From the NCBI RefSeq assembly GCF_008704395.1, contig NZ_CP023695.1:7192001-7256000 (forward strand): a DNA stretch of 64,000 nt, in the 5' to 3' direction. Source of the DNA: Streptomyces alboniger. GTDB taxonomy: Bacteria; Actinomycetota; Actinomycetes; Streptomycetales; Streptomycetaceae. The position numbers and the translations under genes were made by a program. Positions 53,535-63,380 of this stretch are shown one piece after another (within the stretch, counting starts at the first letter, position 1; every line of letters begins with the position of its first letter). The notes under the pieces were generated by a model that saw nothing but the letters and a program-made list of their open reading frames with translations, made no database searches and was not told where the DNA came from.

Positions 53535-53541
53535 CGTGCCC

Positions 53542-56500
53542 ATGAGTGTCGCCGAGGAGAACGCCGAGGCCGCAGGGCCGACCGGGCCGGCGCGGCCCCG
53601 CGGTCGGTTCCTCGCCCGCGTCCCGGAGGGCTTCGCCGCCTTCTTCGGCGCCCTCGGCGTCTTCTGCGCTGTCGTCGCGCTCATCCCCGCGTTGCGCCGC
53701 CTCCTCATGCCCGTCATGCGCTTCCTGGAACTCGTCACGGTCCCGGTCAGCGCGAACCTCGCGTACGCCGTCTTCCTCTTCCTGCTCGCCGCCGCGACCG
53801 CCGCCCGCAAGAAGGTCACCTGGTGGCTCGTCGTCATCTACCTGGCGCTGCTGCTCGCCTTCGACGTGCTCGGCGCGGCACTCGGCTACTGGGCCGAGTC
53901 GCTGCCCTCCTTCGTCGTCTGCGGCATCGCCTTCGTGCTGCTGATCCTGGCCCGCAAGGAGTTCTCCGCGGACTCGCGGCGCGGCGCGCTCTGGCGGGCC
54001 GTCGCGGTGCTGGCCGGGGGCCTCGGCGTCGCCGTCCTGGTGGGCTGGGGGCTCGTACAGCTGTTCCCCGGCAGCCTGCCCCGCCACGAGCGCCTGCTGT
54101 GGGCGGCCAACCGCGTCTGCGGCGGACTGATCCACGGCCACGAGTACTTCCACGGCGCCCCGCCGCGCCCCCTGTTCTTCTGGCTCGGCCTGTTCGGCGC
54201 GCTCGCCCTCCTGAACGCCGCCGCCACGCTCTTCCGCTCCCAGCGCATGGAAGCCGCCCTGCACGGCGACGAGGAGCCCCGCATCCGCGCGCTCCTCGGG
54301 GCGTACGGGGAGCAGGACTCGCTCGGCTACTTCGCCACCCGGCGCGACAAGGCCGTCGTCTTCTCACCCAGCGGCAAGGCCGCCGTCACCTACCGCGTCG
54401 AGGCCGGGGTCTGCCTGGCCAGCGGCGACCCCGTGGGCGACCGCGAGGCCTGGCCGCACGCGATCGGCGCCTGGCTGGACGTGGCCCGGCGGTACGCCTG
54501 GGCCCCCGCCGTGATGGGCGCCTCCGAGGACGGCGCCACCGCGTACGCCCGCTGCGGGCTCGGCGCGCTGCAACTGGGCGACGAGGCGATCCTGCACGTG
54601 GCGGGCTTCGACCTGGACGGCCGGGACATGCGCGTGACCCGGCAGGCCGTTAACCGTGTACGCCGCACCGGCGCCACCACCCGCGTCCGCCGTCACTCCA
54701 CCCTCACCGACGAGGAGATGGAGGAGATCATCGACAAGGCCGACGCCTGGCGGGACACCGAGACCGAGCGCGGCTTCTCCATGGCCCTGGACCGCCTGGG
54801 CGACCCCGAGGACGGCGACTGCCTCCTCGTCGAGGCCCTCGACGCCGACGGCAGGCTCCTCGCCCTGCTCTCCCTCGTCCCCTGGGGCAAGGACGGCGTC
54901 TCCCTCGACGTGATGCGCCGCGACCGCACCGCCCCGAACGGCGTCATGGAGTTCATGGTCGCCGAACTGTGCGCCGCGGCACCGAAGTTCGGCGTGCGCC
55001 GCATCTCCCTCAACTTCGCTGTGTTCCGCTCGGTCTTCGAGGAGGGCGGCCGGATCGGCGCGGGACCGGTCCTGCGCCTGTGGCGCAAGCTGCTGCTGTT
55101 CTTCTCCAAGTGGTGGCAGCTCGAAGCGCTCTACCGCTCCAACGCCAAGTACCACCCCGAGTGGTATCCGCGCTTCATCTGCTACGGCGACAGCGGCGCC
55201 CTCGCCCGCATCAGCCTGGCGTCCGGCATCGCCGAGGGCTTCGTCTCCGTACCGTCCCTGCGCAAGCTCTGGGGCAAGGGCCACCACAGGCCCCGCGGCG
55301 TGGCCCGGCCCGCCACCACCGAGGGCCTCCCCTCGATCGCCGCGCTCGGCCTCGCGGGGCAGGGCGGCACGGCCGACGCCGACCCCGCCTCGAAGCTTGC
55401 GGACCAGATCCGCGTACGCCACCACAAACTCGACCGGCTGCGCGCCGAGGACACGGACCCCTACCCCGTGGGCCTGCCGCCGCCCACCCATCAACTGGCC
55501 TCCCTGAACCGAGACATGACGGGCGCACAGGTCATGGTGGCGGGGCGCGTCATGCTCGTACGCGACTTCGGGGGTGTCGTCTTCGTCGTGCTGCGCGACT
55601 GGTCGGGGGACCGCCAGCTCGCCCTCACCCGTGCGACGACGGGCACCGGCCTGCTCGACCGCTTCACCGCCGGCATCGACATCGGTGACCACATCACGGC
55701 CACCGGCACGGTCGGTACGAGCGACAAGGGTGAGCTGACCGTCTTCGTCACCGACTGGCGCCTCTCCGGCAAGTGTCTGCGCCCGCTGCCCGACAAGCGG
55801 CGCGGCCTGACCGACCCCGAGGCGAAGGTGCGCCGCCGCTATCTCGACCTGGTGGCGAGCCCCGGCGCCCGCGAGGTGGTCCGGGCCCGGTCCGTCGCCG
55901 TGCAGGCCCTGCGCCAGGGCCTGTTGGACCGCGGCTACCTGGAGGTCGAGACGCCGATGCTCCAGCAGATCCACGGCGGTGCCAACGCCCGTCCCTTCAC
56001 CACGCACATCAACGCCTACGACCTCGATCTCTACCTGCGCATCGCACCGGAGCTGTATCTGAAGCGGCTCTGCGTCGGCGGCATGGAGAAGGTCTTCGAG
56101 ATGGGCCGCACCTTCCGCAACGAGGGCGTGAGCTACAAGCACAACCCCGAGTTCACGATGCTGGAGGCCTACCAGGCCTTCGCCGACTACGACGTGATGC
56201 TCGACCTCACCCGCGAACTCATCCAGGGCGCGGCGACCGCCGCCTTCGGCGGACCGGTGGCGTACAAGGACGGCGTCGAGCACGACATCTCCGGGCCCTG
56301 GCCGGTGAAGACCGTCTACGGCGCGATCTCCGAGGCGCTCGGCGAGGAGATCGACGCGGACACACCCCTGGCGGCCCTGCACCGGCACTGCGAACGGGCC
56401 GGCGTCCCCCACACGGCGGAAGACGGCCGCGGGGACATCGTCCTCGAAATGTACGAACGCCTCGTCGAGGAGCGGACGAAGCTGCCCACCTTCTACAAGG

Positions 56501-56838
56501 ACTTCCCGACCGACGTCTCCCCGCTCACCCGCCAGCACCGGGCCGAACCGCGCCTCGCCGAACGCTGGGACCTCGTCGCCTTCGGCACCGAACTGGGCAC
56601 TGCCTACTCGGAGTTGACCGACCCCGTCGAGCAGCGCCGCCGCCTCACCGCGCAGTCGCTCCTGGCCGCCGGGGGAGACCCGGAGGCCATGGAACTGGAC
56701 GAGGACTTCCTCGACGCCCTGGAGTACGCGATGCCGCCCACCGGAGGCCTCGGCATCGGCGTCGACCGGCTCGTCATGTTCCTCACCGGCCTGACCATCC
56801 GCGAGACCCTGCCCTTCCCCCTGGTCCGCCGCGTCTGA
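53542..56838 (+). CDS. lysX: bifunctional lysylphosphatidylglycerol synthase / lysyl-tRNA synthetase
   Basis: A 1098-residue fusion. The N-terminal half (about 1-580) is MprF-like: about seven membrane helices, then a GNAT-like transferase domain that moves lysine from tRNA to phosphatidylglycerol ([20 protein letters not shown] near its end). The C-terminal half (about 610-1098) is a class II lysyl-tRNA synthetase with an OB fold ([15 protein letters not shown]), motif 2 ([20 protein letters not shown]) and motif 3 ([16 protein letters not shown]). The fusion is known from mycobacterial LysX and gives resistance to cationic peptides. The start follows from the leaderless promoter. Confidence 0.96.
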
Positions 56839-57799: not shown

Positions 57800-58489
57800 T
57801 CAGCGCACGGCGGTCAGACGGGCGAAGACGACGACGTTCCCGTCATAACCGGACTGCTTGGAGAAACCGCCGCCGCAGGTGATGACACGCAATTCCGGAG
57901 TCCCGCCGTTTCCGTAGACCCGCTTTCCGGGGAAGTTGTTCTTGTCGAACACCTCAATGCCGTAGATCTTGAAAATCGCGGTTTTCTTGTCCCTGCGCCG
58001 CACCTCGACCTGATGTCCCTTCTTCAGGGAACCGAGGCCGTAGAAGACGGCGGGGCCCTGCTGGTTGTCCACATGGCCGACGACCACGGCCGTGCCCTGC
58101 TCGCCCGGCGAGACGGCGCCCGTGAACCAGCCGGCGAGGTTGGGGTCGTCGGGCGGCGGCGCGTCCACCCACCCCTCCGAGTCCAGGCCCACCGCCATGA
58201 CCGGCGCGTCCACCTGGATGCCCTTGATGCGGACGCGCTCGGCGGGCGAGAACGTCAGCGGCGCGGGCGCGTCGCGCGCCGCGTCGTGCTCCAGGTCCGC
58301 GGCCGCGGCGGACGCGGGCTGCGGCGGCCCCACGTCGAATTCTCCCGATCCGTTGCGGATCAGCGCGAGGCCGGTCAGCAGGACGAGAGCCATCACGCCC
58401 CACGGGGCGCGCTTCTTCTGCTTTTCGTCCTCCTGGAAACCCTGGGAATCCTGAAATTCGAACTCGTCGGCCGGATGGGACGAAGGCAT
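57800..58489 (-). CDS. class F sortase
   Basis: A 229-residue membrane transpeptidase of the actinobacterial class F. A cytosolic tail of about 28 residues (FQEDEKQKKRAPWG) leads into one helix (about 29-44), then a linker and the sortase beta-barrel. The catalytic set is present: His in VVVGHVDNQQ, Cys in VITCGGGF and Arg in VVVFARLTAVR. Class F sortases attach proteins bearing C-terminal sorting signals to the cell wall. No LPXTG protein is next to it, but two envelope proteins with a shared unusual tail lie 0.3-1.2 kb away. AGGGGATAGAGA precedes the ATG. Confidence 0.94.
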   Translation of the reverse strand: MPSSHPADEFEFQDSQGFQEDEKQKKRAPWGVMALVLLTGLALIRNGSGEFDVGPPQPASAAAADLEHDAARDAPAPLTFSPAERVRIKGIQVDAPVMAVGLDSEGWVDAPPPDDPNLAGWFTGAVSPGEQGTAVVVGHVDNQQGPAVFYGLGSLKKGHQVEVRRRDKKTAIFKIYGIEVFDKNNFPGKRVYGNGGTPELRVITCGGGFSKQSGYDGNVVVFARLTAVR

Positions 58490-58822
58490 TCTCTATCCCC
58501 TCTCAACGCGGCGGGCGCGCCGCGTCCGTTGCGCGTACGAGAACGCTAAGCGCGGGGCGCGCGGCGTGCGAAAGGGCGGGAGCGAACGGGTGGCGCCCCG
58601 GCCCGGTGCGCCATCCGAGTCGCCCGCGGACAGGAAATTTCTGACGGTCCGTGACCTGCGGTGATGTCCGCTCGCGCGGACGCGTCTCGGCGTGTCGTCT
58701 CACCAGGACGGCCGATCCCCGAAATGCGGCCCCGCGCCCGGCATCTGAGGGTCTGACTGGGAGGCGCTCTCGCCGATCGACCGGGGACGGTACCCCCGGG
58801 GCGCCTTCCGCGGAGGATTGCC
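58490..58822 (+). other. 333-base divergent intergenic region between the sortase and secreted-protein genes
   Basis: It holds a 7-bp inverted repeat CGCGGCG/CGCCGCG (58507-58524) close to the sortase start, AT-rich patches around 58632-58645, and the ribosome site GCGGAGG of the next gene at its right end. I see no gene and no clear -35/-10 pair. Confidence 0.4.
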
Positions 58823-59329
58823 ATGCGTACTTCTCGTATGCGTACCACTCGTGCCCTCGCGGTGGCCGCCGCGGCAGGCGCGGTCGTGGGGCTCGCCGCC
58901 CCGACCGCGTCCGCGTGGGCCGACCCGACCAACCTCGTGGCGATGCCCAGCGTGATCCCGCGGGGCGGGCACCTGACGGTCACCGTCGACGGCTCGTCCT
59001 GCCAGAGCGGCGGCAAGATCACCTCGCATGCCTTCCCCGACACGAACCTGCACCCCATCCCCGGCGGCAGCACGTCGAGCGCCACCGCGGTCGTGCACAA
59101 GCACGCGACGCCGGGCGCGTACGACATCACGGCCCACTGCGGCGGCAAGACCCTCACGCGCCCGGCCGCTTTCACCGTCATCCACGGCGGTGTGCGCGGT
59201 GGCTTCGGAGGCAGCGCGCACTCGGGGGCGACCGGCACGGACATCGCGATCGGCGGCGCTCTGGTGACCGCCGCGGTGGTCGGCGGCGGCGTGTTCTGGA
59301 TGCGCCGCCGGTCCGAGAACCGCGCCTGA
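58823..59329 (+). CDS. exported membrane-anchored protein A (candidate sortase neighbour)
   Basis: A 168-residue protein. A signal peptide (about 1-33) is followed by a small beta domain of about 90 residues with two cysteines in DGSSCQ and AHCGGK. The C-terminal tail reads VRGGFGGSAHSGATGTD, then a helix from IAIGGAL to FWMRRR. There is no LPXTG-like motif. The tail is laid out like the paralogue at 59455 (see there). It is convergent with that gene and separated by a 20-bp hairpin. Both may be substrates or partners of the class F sortase. The beta-domain function is unknown. Confidence 0.83.
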   Translation: MRTSRMRTTRALAVAAAAGAVVGLAAPTASAWADPTNLVAMPSVIPRGGHLTVTVDGSSCQSGGKITSHAFPDTNLHPIPGGSTSSATAVVHKHATPGAYDITAHCGGKTLTRPAAFTVIHGGVRGGFGGSAHSGATGTDIAIGGALVTAAVVGGGVFWMRRRSENRA

Positions 59330-59395
59330 CCCGCCGGGCGGCCCCGGCGCGCCCCCTTCCGCACCCCGGCCGCCCGCTTCGCGCACCGCACGTGA

Positions 59396-59443
59396 CACCG
59401 CCTCGCCCCCGGGACCTGGAGACGTCCCGGGGGCGAGGCGGTG
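59396..59443. terminator. 20-bp perfect hairpin, bidirectional terminator
   Basis: The stem pairs 59396-59415 with 59424-59443 around an 8-base loop, midway between two convergent paralogous genes. It is the longest perfect hairpin I saw in the window. Confidence 0.85.
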
Positions 59444-59454
59444 GCGGTGGCGGG

Positions 59455-60003
59455 TCAGGAATGGTTTTCGCCGGTGCGGCGCCGGGTCTTGTAGTAGGCG
59501 GTGGCGAGGGTGCCCAGGATCAGCGCGCCGCCGAGGGCGATCTCGTGCAGGTCGAGCCCGCCGAGGCTGCCGCCGATGCCGGCCTTGACGCCCTTGTTCA
59601 CCGGGTTCTGATGCTGGTTCTGGTGGTTGTTGTTGCCGTCGGGGCGGCCGGTGGCGATGGTGAGGTCCGTCTTGCCGGTCTCGCCCTTGCAGTCGAACGT
59701 CACCTCGTACATCGCGCCGGGCTTGGCGTCCCAGAACACCTGGGCCGTGGTGGACGACTGCCCCTTGGGGATGTGCGCGTCGTCGAAGATGCCGGAGGTG
59801 ACCTTGGTGTCGCCCTCGCAGCCGTCGACGCTGAGGGTGACCTGTCCGCCCGCGGCGATCGTGGAAGGGGTCACGCGGAAGCCGAACGAGGTGATGTTGT
59901 TGTTCGTCTCGTCGCCCCGGACGGTCGCCGACGCGGGCGGGACCGTGAGCGTCAGGGCGGTGGCGGTGAGCAGAGCGGCCGAAGCGACGCGTATCGCGCG
60001 CAT
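59455..60003 (-). CDS. exported membrane-anchored protein B (paralogous tail)
   Basis: A 182-residue protein with a signal peptide (cleavage near residue 27), a beta domain with two cysteines (VDGCEGD and FDCKGE), a His/Asn/Gln-rich linker (NNNHQNQHQN) and a C-terminal tail VKAGIGGSLGGLDLHE followed by a helix from IALGGAL to YYKTRRR. Protein A at 58823 has the same order: V(R/K)xGxGGS, about 8 residues, (D/E)IAxGGAL, helix, RRR, then EN. Its membrane helix and Arg tail resemble the end of a sortase signal, but the expected LPXTG pentapeptide is missing. ATG 60003 has GGAGG seven bases away. Confidence 0.85.
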   Translation of the reverse strand: MRAIRVASAALLTATALTLTVPPASATVRGDETNNNITSFGFRVTPSTIAAGGQVTLSVDGCEGDTKVTSGIFDDAHIPKGQSSTTAQVFWDAKPGAMYEVTFDCKGETGKTDLTIATGRPDGNNNHQNQHQNPVNKGVKAGIGGSLGGLDLHEIALGGALILGTLATAYYKTRRRTGENHS

Positions 60004-62550: not shown

Positions 62551-63147
62551 TCAGCGCGGGCGGAGCGCGGCGACGGCGAGAACCGCGGGCGCTGTGATGA
62601 GCAGGGTGAGCGAGACGAGGGACGGGCCGTCGCGCGGCGGCCGCTTGCGGGTCGGCGCGTTGTACGACGGATATGTCACGGATGGCGATGGCTTGGTTGT
62701 TCTGGTCGGGGTGGGGGGTTTGGGCTTGGGTTCGGGCTTGGGTTCGGGCGCCGACTTCGGAGCGAGTGCGGGCGGCGGGGGCGAGGCGGGCTCGACTGTC
62801 GGCCGCGGTTTCGGCGCGGGCGCTGGTGGCGGGTCCGGGGCCGGGGCCTCCGGAGGTGGCGGAGGGGGCGGCGGAGGCGGTGGGGGAGCGGGCGGCGGGG
62901 GCGGCGGGGGAGGCTTCGGCCGGTGCGTGGGCCCGGCCCAGCAGTTGGCGCCGTCACCCGCCACGGCCGTATGGCCGCCGCCCGAAGAACCGCCGCCCGG
63001 GCCGATCGACGCGTACGCGCAGCTGTCGGCCACGGCCCTTCCGGCGCCGGTGAGGGCGCCCAGGAGCAGCGCCATCGCCAGAAATGCCAACACGCGTGTG
63101 GCGAGGGGCGACAGGGCCCGCGAAGTTCCATGCACGACGGAGATCAT
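62551..63147 (-). CDS. polyproline-rich exported membrane protein
   Basis: A 198-residue protein: a signal peptide (about 15-40), a short domain with two cysteines (SCAYASIGPG and NCWAGP), then a long disordered stretch with runs of up to twelve or so prolines, Lys/Pro repeats (PKPEPKPKP), and a final helix (LVSLTLLITAPAVLAVAAL). It resembles wall-spanning proteins anchored at the C-terminus. Translation of such proline runs normally needs EF-P. The start at ATG 63147 is the best fit to a signal peptide; a GTG nine bases later is possible. Confidence 0.75.
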   Translation of the reverse strand: MISVVHGTSRALSPLATRVLAFLAMALLLGALTGAGRAVADSCAYASIGPGGGSSGGGHTAVAGDGANCWAGPTHRPKPPPPPPPPAPPPPPPPPPPPPEAPAPDPPPAPAPKPRPTVEPASPPPPALAPKSAPEPKPEPKPKPPTPTRTTKPSPSVTYPSYNAPTRKRPPRDGPSLVSLTLLITAPAVLAVAALRPR

Positions 63148-63380
63148 GGGCGCAGGGCGCCCCGCGCACGCGGGAAGCGCGCCCGAATGCCCCGAAGGGA
63201 TGAGGTGGTTATGGCGCGGGTTTGACGGCACGCGCCGCGGCCCCGGGCCCTCCCCACCGCGGACGCCGCGGAAAGAAATTCTTGGCCCCGTTGAACGCGA
63301 TGGTCGTCCCCGCCCGTACCTAGGGCCATGTGTGACGCAAAACGGCGCCACAACATCCAAGCGGACAGCGGGAGTTACAG

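Follow-up and report, generated by a model that had tools for sequence, protein, structure and literature searches.

Organization of the Locus

The window considered here is the whole analyzed stretch of 64,000 nucleotides, corresponding to bases 7192001–7256000 of the complete 7.96 Mb genome of Streptomyces alboniger. It harbors the gene of a class F sortase (57800..58489, minus strand), a presumed enzyme of 229 aa with an N-terminal membrane anchor followed by the sortase domain, and the genes of two presumed substrates, referred to below as protein A (58823..59329, plus strand; 168 aa) and protein B (59455..60003, minus strand; 182 aa), each featuring a signal peptide, a two-Cys Ig-like domain, and a tail apparently representing a variant of the GVDTG type. 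The sortase gene and the A gene point away from each other, and the A gene converges on that of B. As originally noticed, the two convergent genes are separated by a hairpin of 20 bp without mismatch (59396..59443, not assigned to a strand), whose 20-nt arms, 59396–59415 and 59424–59443, are 100% complementary. The folding energy of this hairpin is -51 kcal/mol (z -7.85), and it is probably a two-way terminator.

The Class F Sortase and Its Catalytic Residues

The sortase scored 205.2 bits with the profile NF033748, above the curated cut-off of 166, and 77.8 bits with PF04203. Its initial description as a complete class F sortase stands as far as the NF033748 match and the catalytic residues His139 (codons of Val137-Gly138-His139 at 58073..58081, minus strand) and Cys205 are concerned, but the slot of the usual catalytic Arg is occupied by Asn218 (the stretch encoding Arg201, the nucleophile Cys205, and Asn218 spans 57836..57889, minus strand). 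This slot contains Asn in 153 of the 159 class F sortases compared, and the Arg-to-Asn replacement in this class has already been reported in the available part of PMC6998099. At the same time, the position Cys-4 (Arg201 in the window) is Arg in 148 of the 159 enzymes (loci L045–L203) and Thr in the three class E enzymes of the window's genome; the available parts of the literature on class F sortases contained no statement on this residue. The Arg at Cys-4 might take over from the missing catalytic Arg, as if the arginine had moved to another strand. The predicted structure of the sortase (pLDDT 46.5) was set aside, and the relatives of class F found by sequence in the PDB were weak (5uus, E 0.2).

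A class F sortase match was present in 60 of the 61 sampled genomes of the host's family and exceeded the cut-off in 59 of them. In one locus (L194, contig C11 of genome G126), three such matches starting at 168, 874, and 2385 lie within 2.7 kb, the middle one being partial. A class F sortase of P. acnes reportedly acts on LPXTG-type peptides (work of Di Girolamo from 2019). In Actinoplanes missouriensis, deletion of all four class F sortases resulted in no phenotype, according to the available part of PMC13251363; since wall linkage of such proteins was unreported in that part, this result leaves a substrate model undecided.

Homology and Conservation of Proteins A and B

When read by eye, the sequences of A and B display signal peptides and closely similar tails, VRGGFGGS..DIAIGGAL..RRRSEN in A and VKAGIGGS..EIALGGAL..RRRTGEN in B, and LPXTG is absent from both. 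The original view of A and B as exported proteins with a common tail lacking LPXTG was thus borne out, and the architecture of a sorting signal (a motif, a helix, and a basic C-terminal end in an exported protein) is present in both. The putative sorting motif of A, GVRGG (residues 123–127; 59189..59203, plus strand), with the presumed scissile bond Gly126-Gly127, is followed by a membrane helix and an RRR stop-transfer element recognized by eye (59243..59311, plus strand). In B, the corresponding motif is GVKAG (residues 138–142; 59578..59592, minus strand), with the presumed scissile bond Ala141-Gly142.

The outer domains of A and B, initially considered to be different, turned out to be homologous: the two proteins align over their full length (hhalign E 1e-23), and the outer domains alone align with E 1.2e-15 and 44% identity over 64 columns, whereas none of 20 column-shuffled controls did better than E 0.068. 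Judging by this sequence homology, A and B are paralogous along their entire length, each with an Ig-like domain containing two cysteines. Hence, a tail common to these two proteins alone is explained by descent, and the tail becomes informative through the wider comparison across loci, beyond the A/B pair. B was modeled as an Ig-like sandwich of seven strands (core pLDDT 92–96) with a low-confidence tail helix; the fold search with the outer domain retrieved the common Ig-like sandwich only, and the resemblance to neocarzinostatin-like proteins is one of fold.

Among the homologues of A (120 listed of 569 found), all 120 possess Gly at P1 and Gly at P1′, and all 120 listed homologues of B (of 462 found) combine P1 Ala with P1′ Gly. 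The B homologues include proteins of S. venezuelae. The tail of A is strongly conserved overall, including the P1′ Gly and GxGG.

The synteny was analyzed in the best 80 of 110 loci with B homologues, all from Streptomyces. A class F sortase was encoded on the fetched stretch in 77 of these best 80 loci, and a convergent A was present in 56 of the 77, in line with the expected grouping of such genes beyond chance; B and the sortase occurred without a detected A in 21 of the best 80 loci (of 110), and 3 contained neither the sortase nor A. In this set, 52 of the 56 A proteins gave a P1 reading of Gly; among the 80 B proteins, the reading was Ala for 56 and Gly for 6, the remaining 18 being not cleanly readable by the pattern. 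This gene layout recurs in 5 of 18 genomes of the family (loci L058, L060, L064, L069, and L082). The 21 loci without a detected A suggest that B is the older partner and A the later duplicate. Thus, A probably arose by duplication of B, a direction we infer; loss of A is the alternative.

The Tail as a Probable Variant of a Cataloged Signal

The tail resembles the GVDTG sorting domain cataloged in NCBIfam as NF058571, likewise a C-terminal signal (44 positions). Protein A scored 25.6 bits with this profile, and 28.7/29.1 bits in the genome search, vs. the cut-off of 29; the profile search of protein B returned no match at E ≤ 1. At E ≤ 0.1, all 41 sampled A proteins and 16 of the 40 sampled B proteins matched. 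The best match to NF058571, at locus L158 (52.7 bits), resides beside a class F sortase and contains literal GGVDTGGG; in the alignment, its GVDTG corresponds to GVRGG in A and GVKAG in B, so literal GVDTG with P1 Thr is absent from the tails of the window. The tail of A and B appears to be a variant form of a signal already in NCBIfam and not wholly new. So far, no sortase paper on GVDTG was found by title, and such a signal is unnamed in the available parts of the literature examined (PMC13251363, PMC13293333, PMC5148588, PMC9520033, PMC8361268, and PMC6998099).

Association of the Tails with Class F Sortases

The search with NF058571, a profile independent of our data, detected 51 tails in 118 genomes of the host's class. 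At least 44 of the 51 have a listed class F sortase no more than 3 kb away, i.e., the tails are not found mostly away from these enzymes, the outcome that would have spoken against the original proposal; at least 37 of the 51 lie upstream of the sortase on the same strand within 1.5 kb. One further tail (genome G165) is adjacent to a class F sortase if its contig is circular. At the genome level, class F sortases at E < 1e-15 were present in 35/35 tail-bearing genomes vs. 65/118 overall (Fisher 3e-12), and the streptomycete G044 had neither a class F match nor a tail at the thresholds used.

In 18 genomes of the family, the profile A1 (E ≤ 1e-5) revealed 38 tails; for 26 of these, a class F sortase lay no farther than 3 kb away (0.15 expected), although this test is not independent because A1 was partly built from sortase-side tails. 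Seen from the sortases, an A1 tail was located within 3 kb of 21 of the 79 class F enzymes in these genomes. In 6 of the 18 genomes, A1 found nothing; one of these (G037) has nine full-length class F sortases. The class E control was negative: none of the 38 A1 tails fell within 3 kb of the 54 class E matches in the 18 genomes.

The window's genome possesses four class F sortases, each with a tail-type gene beside it; the tail next to the sortase at 2910138 was seen by eye and had no A1 match. Three further A1 matches in this genome (E ≤ 1e-7; loci L003, L004, and L022 at 4085824, 927988, and 292937) are situated away from class F sortases and are possible substrates acting at a distance.

Profile-Free Survey of the Motif

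Upstream ORFs with a C-terminal helix and a basic end were also sought without a profile in 159 class F loci. Of these, 79 came from the family (90 matches minus one broken 69-aa fragment and ten matches under 35 bits) and 80 from other families (109 listed non-Streptomycetaceae matches, 99 selected, 80 fetched). Such an ORF was found directly upstream of 118 of the 159 sortases (56/79 in the family, 62/80 in other families), some of the 118 being perhaps spurious, e.g., that of L127. The upstream tails share G-[GA]-[VPA]-x-[T/A/G]-G-x-G-G, with T in 80, A in 27, and G in 3 of the 112 sites accepted among the 118, and with P1′ Gly in all 112; P1 Gly is rare outside the A-type tails.

With the threshold set so that 1% of shuffles pass, a motif tail was located nearby in 107 of the 159 loci, leaving 52 sortases without one; with a looser setting that 6.6% of shuffles pass, the number was 122 of the 159. 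The 118 tails are not an independent sample with respect to the PWM and its threshold. Of 29 tailed ORFs situated more than 2.3 kb away in the family loci, 1 carries the motif at the stricter setting. Among 40 fresh loci, 31 showed a motif tail at the looser threshold and 9 had none.

The TG directly before the helix was considered as the site and rejected, the site conserved across loci being the upstream GVxxG. By comparison of the sequences, cleavage would occur inside GVxxG, about 12–15 residues before the helix. Another candidate regularity, the constant co-occurrence of divergent gene order with non-Thr P1, was weakened: it held in 15/15 cases of the main set, but these amount to 4 changes on the tree, and the fresh locus L302 combines divergent order with P1 Thr.

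The signals of class A and E sortases (LPXTG/LAXTG) share with the window tails a pentapeptide ending in Gly, a helix, and basic residues, and Pro at P3 is present in 23 of the 112 motifs of the class F partners. In contrast to LPXTG/LAXTG, these motifs mostly have Gly or Ala instead of Leu at P4; the window tails differ further in P1 Ala/Gly. Other differences are the conservation of xGG downstream of the site and the greater distance to the helix. The class E system of Streptomyces (SrtE1/2 with chaplins) is likewise an actinobacterial sortase system with cell-surface substrates (PMC5148588, available part); unlike the window tail type, the signal recognized by SrtE1/2 is LAXTG.

Covariation of the Sortase and the Motif

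Covariation was assessed in 119 sortase–tail pairs drawn from the 159 loci. L113 was left out for its doubtful ORF, L090 because Leu was read at P1, L107 because its motif was mis-sited, and another 37 loci because they had no motif tail. Val two residues before the catalytic His (His-2) was found in 30/40 pairs with P1 Ala or Gly vs. 12/79 pairs with P1 Thr (Fisher 1.7e-10), the lowest P among the sortase columns tested; the next column, adjacent to His-2, gave 7.3e-6. All 7 pairs with P1 Gly in the main set and both such pairs of the fresh set have Val at His-2, 61 of the 79 P1 Thr pairs have Ala or Leu there, and 10 of the 40 P1 Ala/Gly pairs lack His-2 Val. The window sortase (Val137-Gly-His139) carries Val at His-2, and all four class F sortases of its genome fit the pattern, with Ala beside VKTG and Val beside GVRGG/GVKAG, VRAG, and VEAG.

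On the sortase tree, the dependent model was preferred (LR 22.9, p 1.3e-4), ranking first of 69 traits of similar frequency; the runner-up trait reached LR 17.1, a sign of a phylogenetic background that should not be neglected. Support for the tree itself is weak (stars on 41 of its 156 inner branches), and in the independent-pairs test, supported branches supplied only 2 pairs; few independent changes underlie the covariation.

For the fresh loci, the prediction was fixed beforehand, and His-2 Val was found in 16/21 Ala/Gly vs. 1/10 Thr pairs (p 7.9e-4), many of these loci being close relatives. The fresh set comprised 36 loci picked by hand before their sequences were viewed, all from the latter half of the 61-genome family list, and 4 of 19 class-wide leftovers; it skipped the genomes of the 18 as well as some loci, mostly near contig ends, and its make-up departs from the 20 plus 19 announced beforehand.

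The P3 letter was considered as a confounder and does not account for the P1 effect. His-2 Val showed no association with P3 Val (p 0.13), P3 Ala (p 0.32), or P3 Pro (p 0.62), and within the P3 Val stratum it occurred in 23/28 Ala/Gly vs. 4/37 Thr pairs (p 4.8e-9). The effect is strong only within this stratum, being not significant within P3 Pro (p 0.6) or P3 Ala (p 0.063). The sortase column associated best with P3 Val was His-2 Leu (2.2e-5).

Structural data are available for related enzymes. In the S. pyogenes SrtA complex, the methyl of P1 Thr faces A140 and V206, and A140 (His142-2), the counterpart of Val137 of the window sortase, also touches P3 Pro (PMC9520033, available part); in models of S. 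coelicolor SrtE1, Ala249 (His251-2) packs against the P3 residue (PMC5148588, available part). These contacts place His-2 in the substrate groove, and His-2 may read both P1 and P3. A tunable S1 pocket can be proposed tentatively, in which His-2 would set the preference for Thr vs. Ala/Gly, several enzyme–substrate co-switches would have taken place, and the window enzyme would be specialized for small P1 residues and cut Gly-Gly in A, although we consider this scheme somewhat doubtful as yet. Cutting of Gly-Gly by a sortase was not found described in the available parts of the literature examined.

Interpretation and Alternative Explanations

Most probably, A and B are the cognate substrates of a class F sortase dedicated to them and bear the GVxxG signal in a small-P1 form matched by the enzyme pocket. 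This reading is based on computation, namely the association, the common motif, the homology, and the covariation; the cleavage, the position of the bond, and the wall linkage are what we infer from them. A and B would be exported and kept in the membrane by the C-terminal helix and RRR. The sortase would then recognize the GVxxG pentapeptide, the counterpart of LPXTG, about 12–15 residues before the helix and cut before its last Gly, i.e., GVKA/GIGG in B and GVRG/GFGG in A, the P1 Thr being replaced by Ala in B and Gly in A and matched by the Val at His-2 in the S1 site. The peptidoglycan of Streptomyces carries glycine on LL-diaminopimelate, and the new carboxyl end would be joined to a wall precursor, presumably via this glycine. 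The neighborhood, the class E control, and the enzyme–motif covariation lend support to the core of the original proposal, namely that class F sortases use a sorting signal other than LPXTG; the novelty of this signal is curtailed by the entry NF058571. Points that weigh against the two-substrate reading are the rarity of P1 Gly outside the A-type tails, the 52 of 159 class F sortases with no motif tail nearby at the stricter threshold, the tails lacking a sortase in their vicinity, the few independent changes behind the covariation, the missing phenotype in Actinoplanes, and the reported action of a P. acnes enzyme on LPXTG-type peptides.

The main rival explanation, though an unlikely one, is that only B is a substrate and A is a membrane-retained paralogue binding the sortase or B without being cleaved (a decoy, holdase, or regulator). 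It would accommodate the fixation of P1 Gly in A and P1 Ala in B across all 120 listed homologues of each, the near confinement of P1 Gly to A-type tails, and the 21 of the best 80 loci (of 110) in which B and the sortase dispense with a detectable A. At the same time, the whole tail of A, including the P1′ Gly and GxGG, is strongly conserved, and every P1 Gly pair (7 in the main set, 2 in the fresh one) shares His-2 Val with most P1 Ala pairs, which argues against an uncleaved A.

Less probable still, the tail could be a plain membrane anchor or assembly module, with the sortase acting elsewhere (perhaps on LPXTG-like proteins) and the neighborhood explained by shared regulation. The lack of literal LPXTG and P1 Thr in the window, the distance of 12–15 residues from the motif to the helix, and the tails without a nearby sortase are compatible with such a role; however, the motif turns up next to class F sortases in different families, none of the 38 tails is near class E, and a motif letter covaries with a substrate-pocket residue. 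A pilus-like arrangement, in which the sortase joins A and B covalently to each other or polymerizes them rather than attaching each singly to the wall, is very improbable: two paralogous Ig-like subunits do lie beside one sortase, and the top Foldseek match of B is a domain of a Clostridium perfringens pilus protein (E 4.9e-4), but the sortase is of class F, not class C, and VIA-align scores many unrelated Ig-like folds equally for B.

If A and B are cognate substrates, the locus bears on an enzyme class whose role is called unknown, or whose substrate is not given, in the available parts of PMC13251363, PMC5148588, and PMC6998099. The class F sortases of Streptomyces and Actinoplanes described there belong to the same class as the window enzyme; those parts name no substrate motif of theirs, whereas the window locus offers a putative one. 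According to the available part of PMC13251363, substrates in Actinoplanes were listed by LPXTG-like motifs, a procedure that would have missed GVxTG proteins. A class-wide motif, along with a pocket residue tracking the letter at the scissile site, makes the substrates of class F searchable and their specificity directly testable. Sortases of other specificities are also useful in protein ligation.

Flanking Genes

Several other genes surround the locus. A polysaccharide deacetylase gene (PF01522; 56860–57771, plus strand), convergent with the sortase gene and ending 28 bp from its end, is a possible wall-modifying neighbor. It is preceded by an ORF of 1100 aa (53536–56838, plus strand), which by eye resembles a fusion of a membrane lysyltransferase with a lysyl-tRNA synthetase. 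On the other side, the proline-rich ORF at 62551–63150 (minus strand) has a start resembling a signal sequence and, at its C terminus, a helix; four other genomes (L058, L060, L064, and L082) contain a gene similar to it at a distance of about 2.6–3.8 kb from the sortase, so this ORF may belong to a conserved neighborhood.
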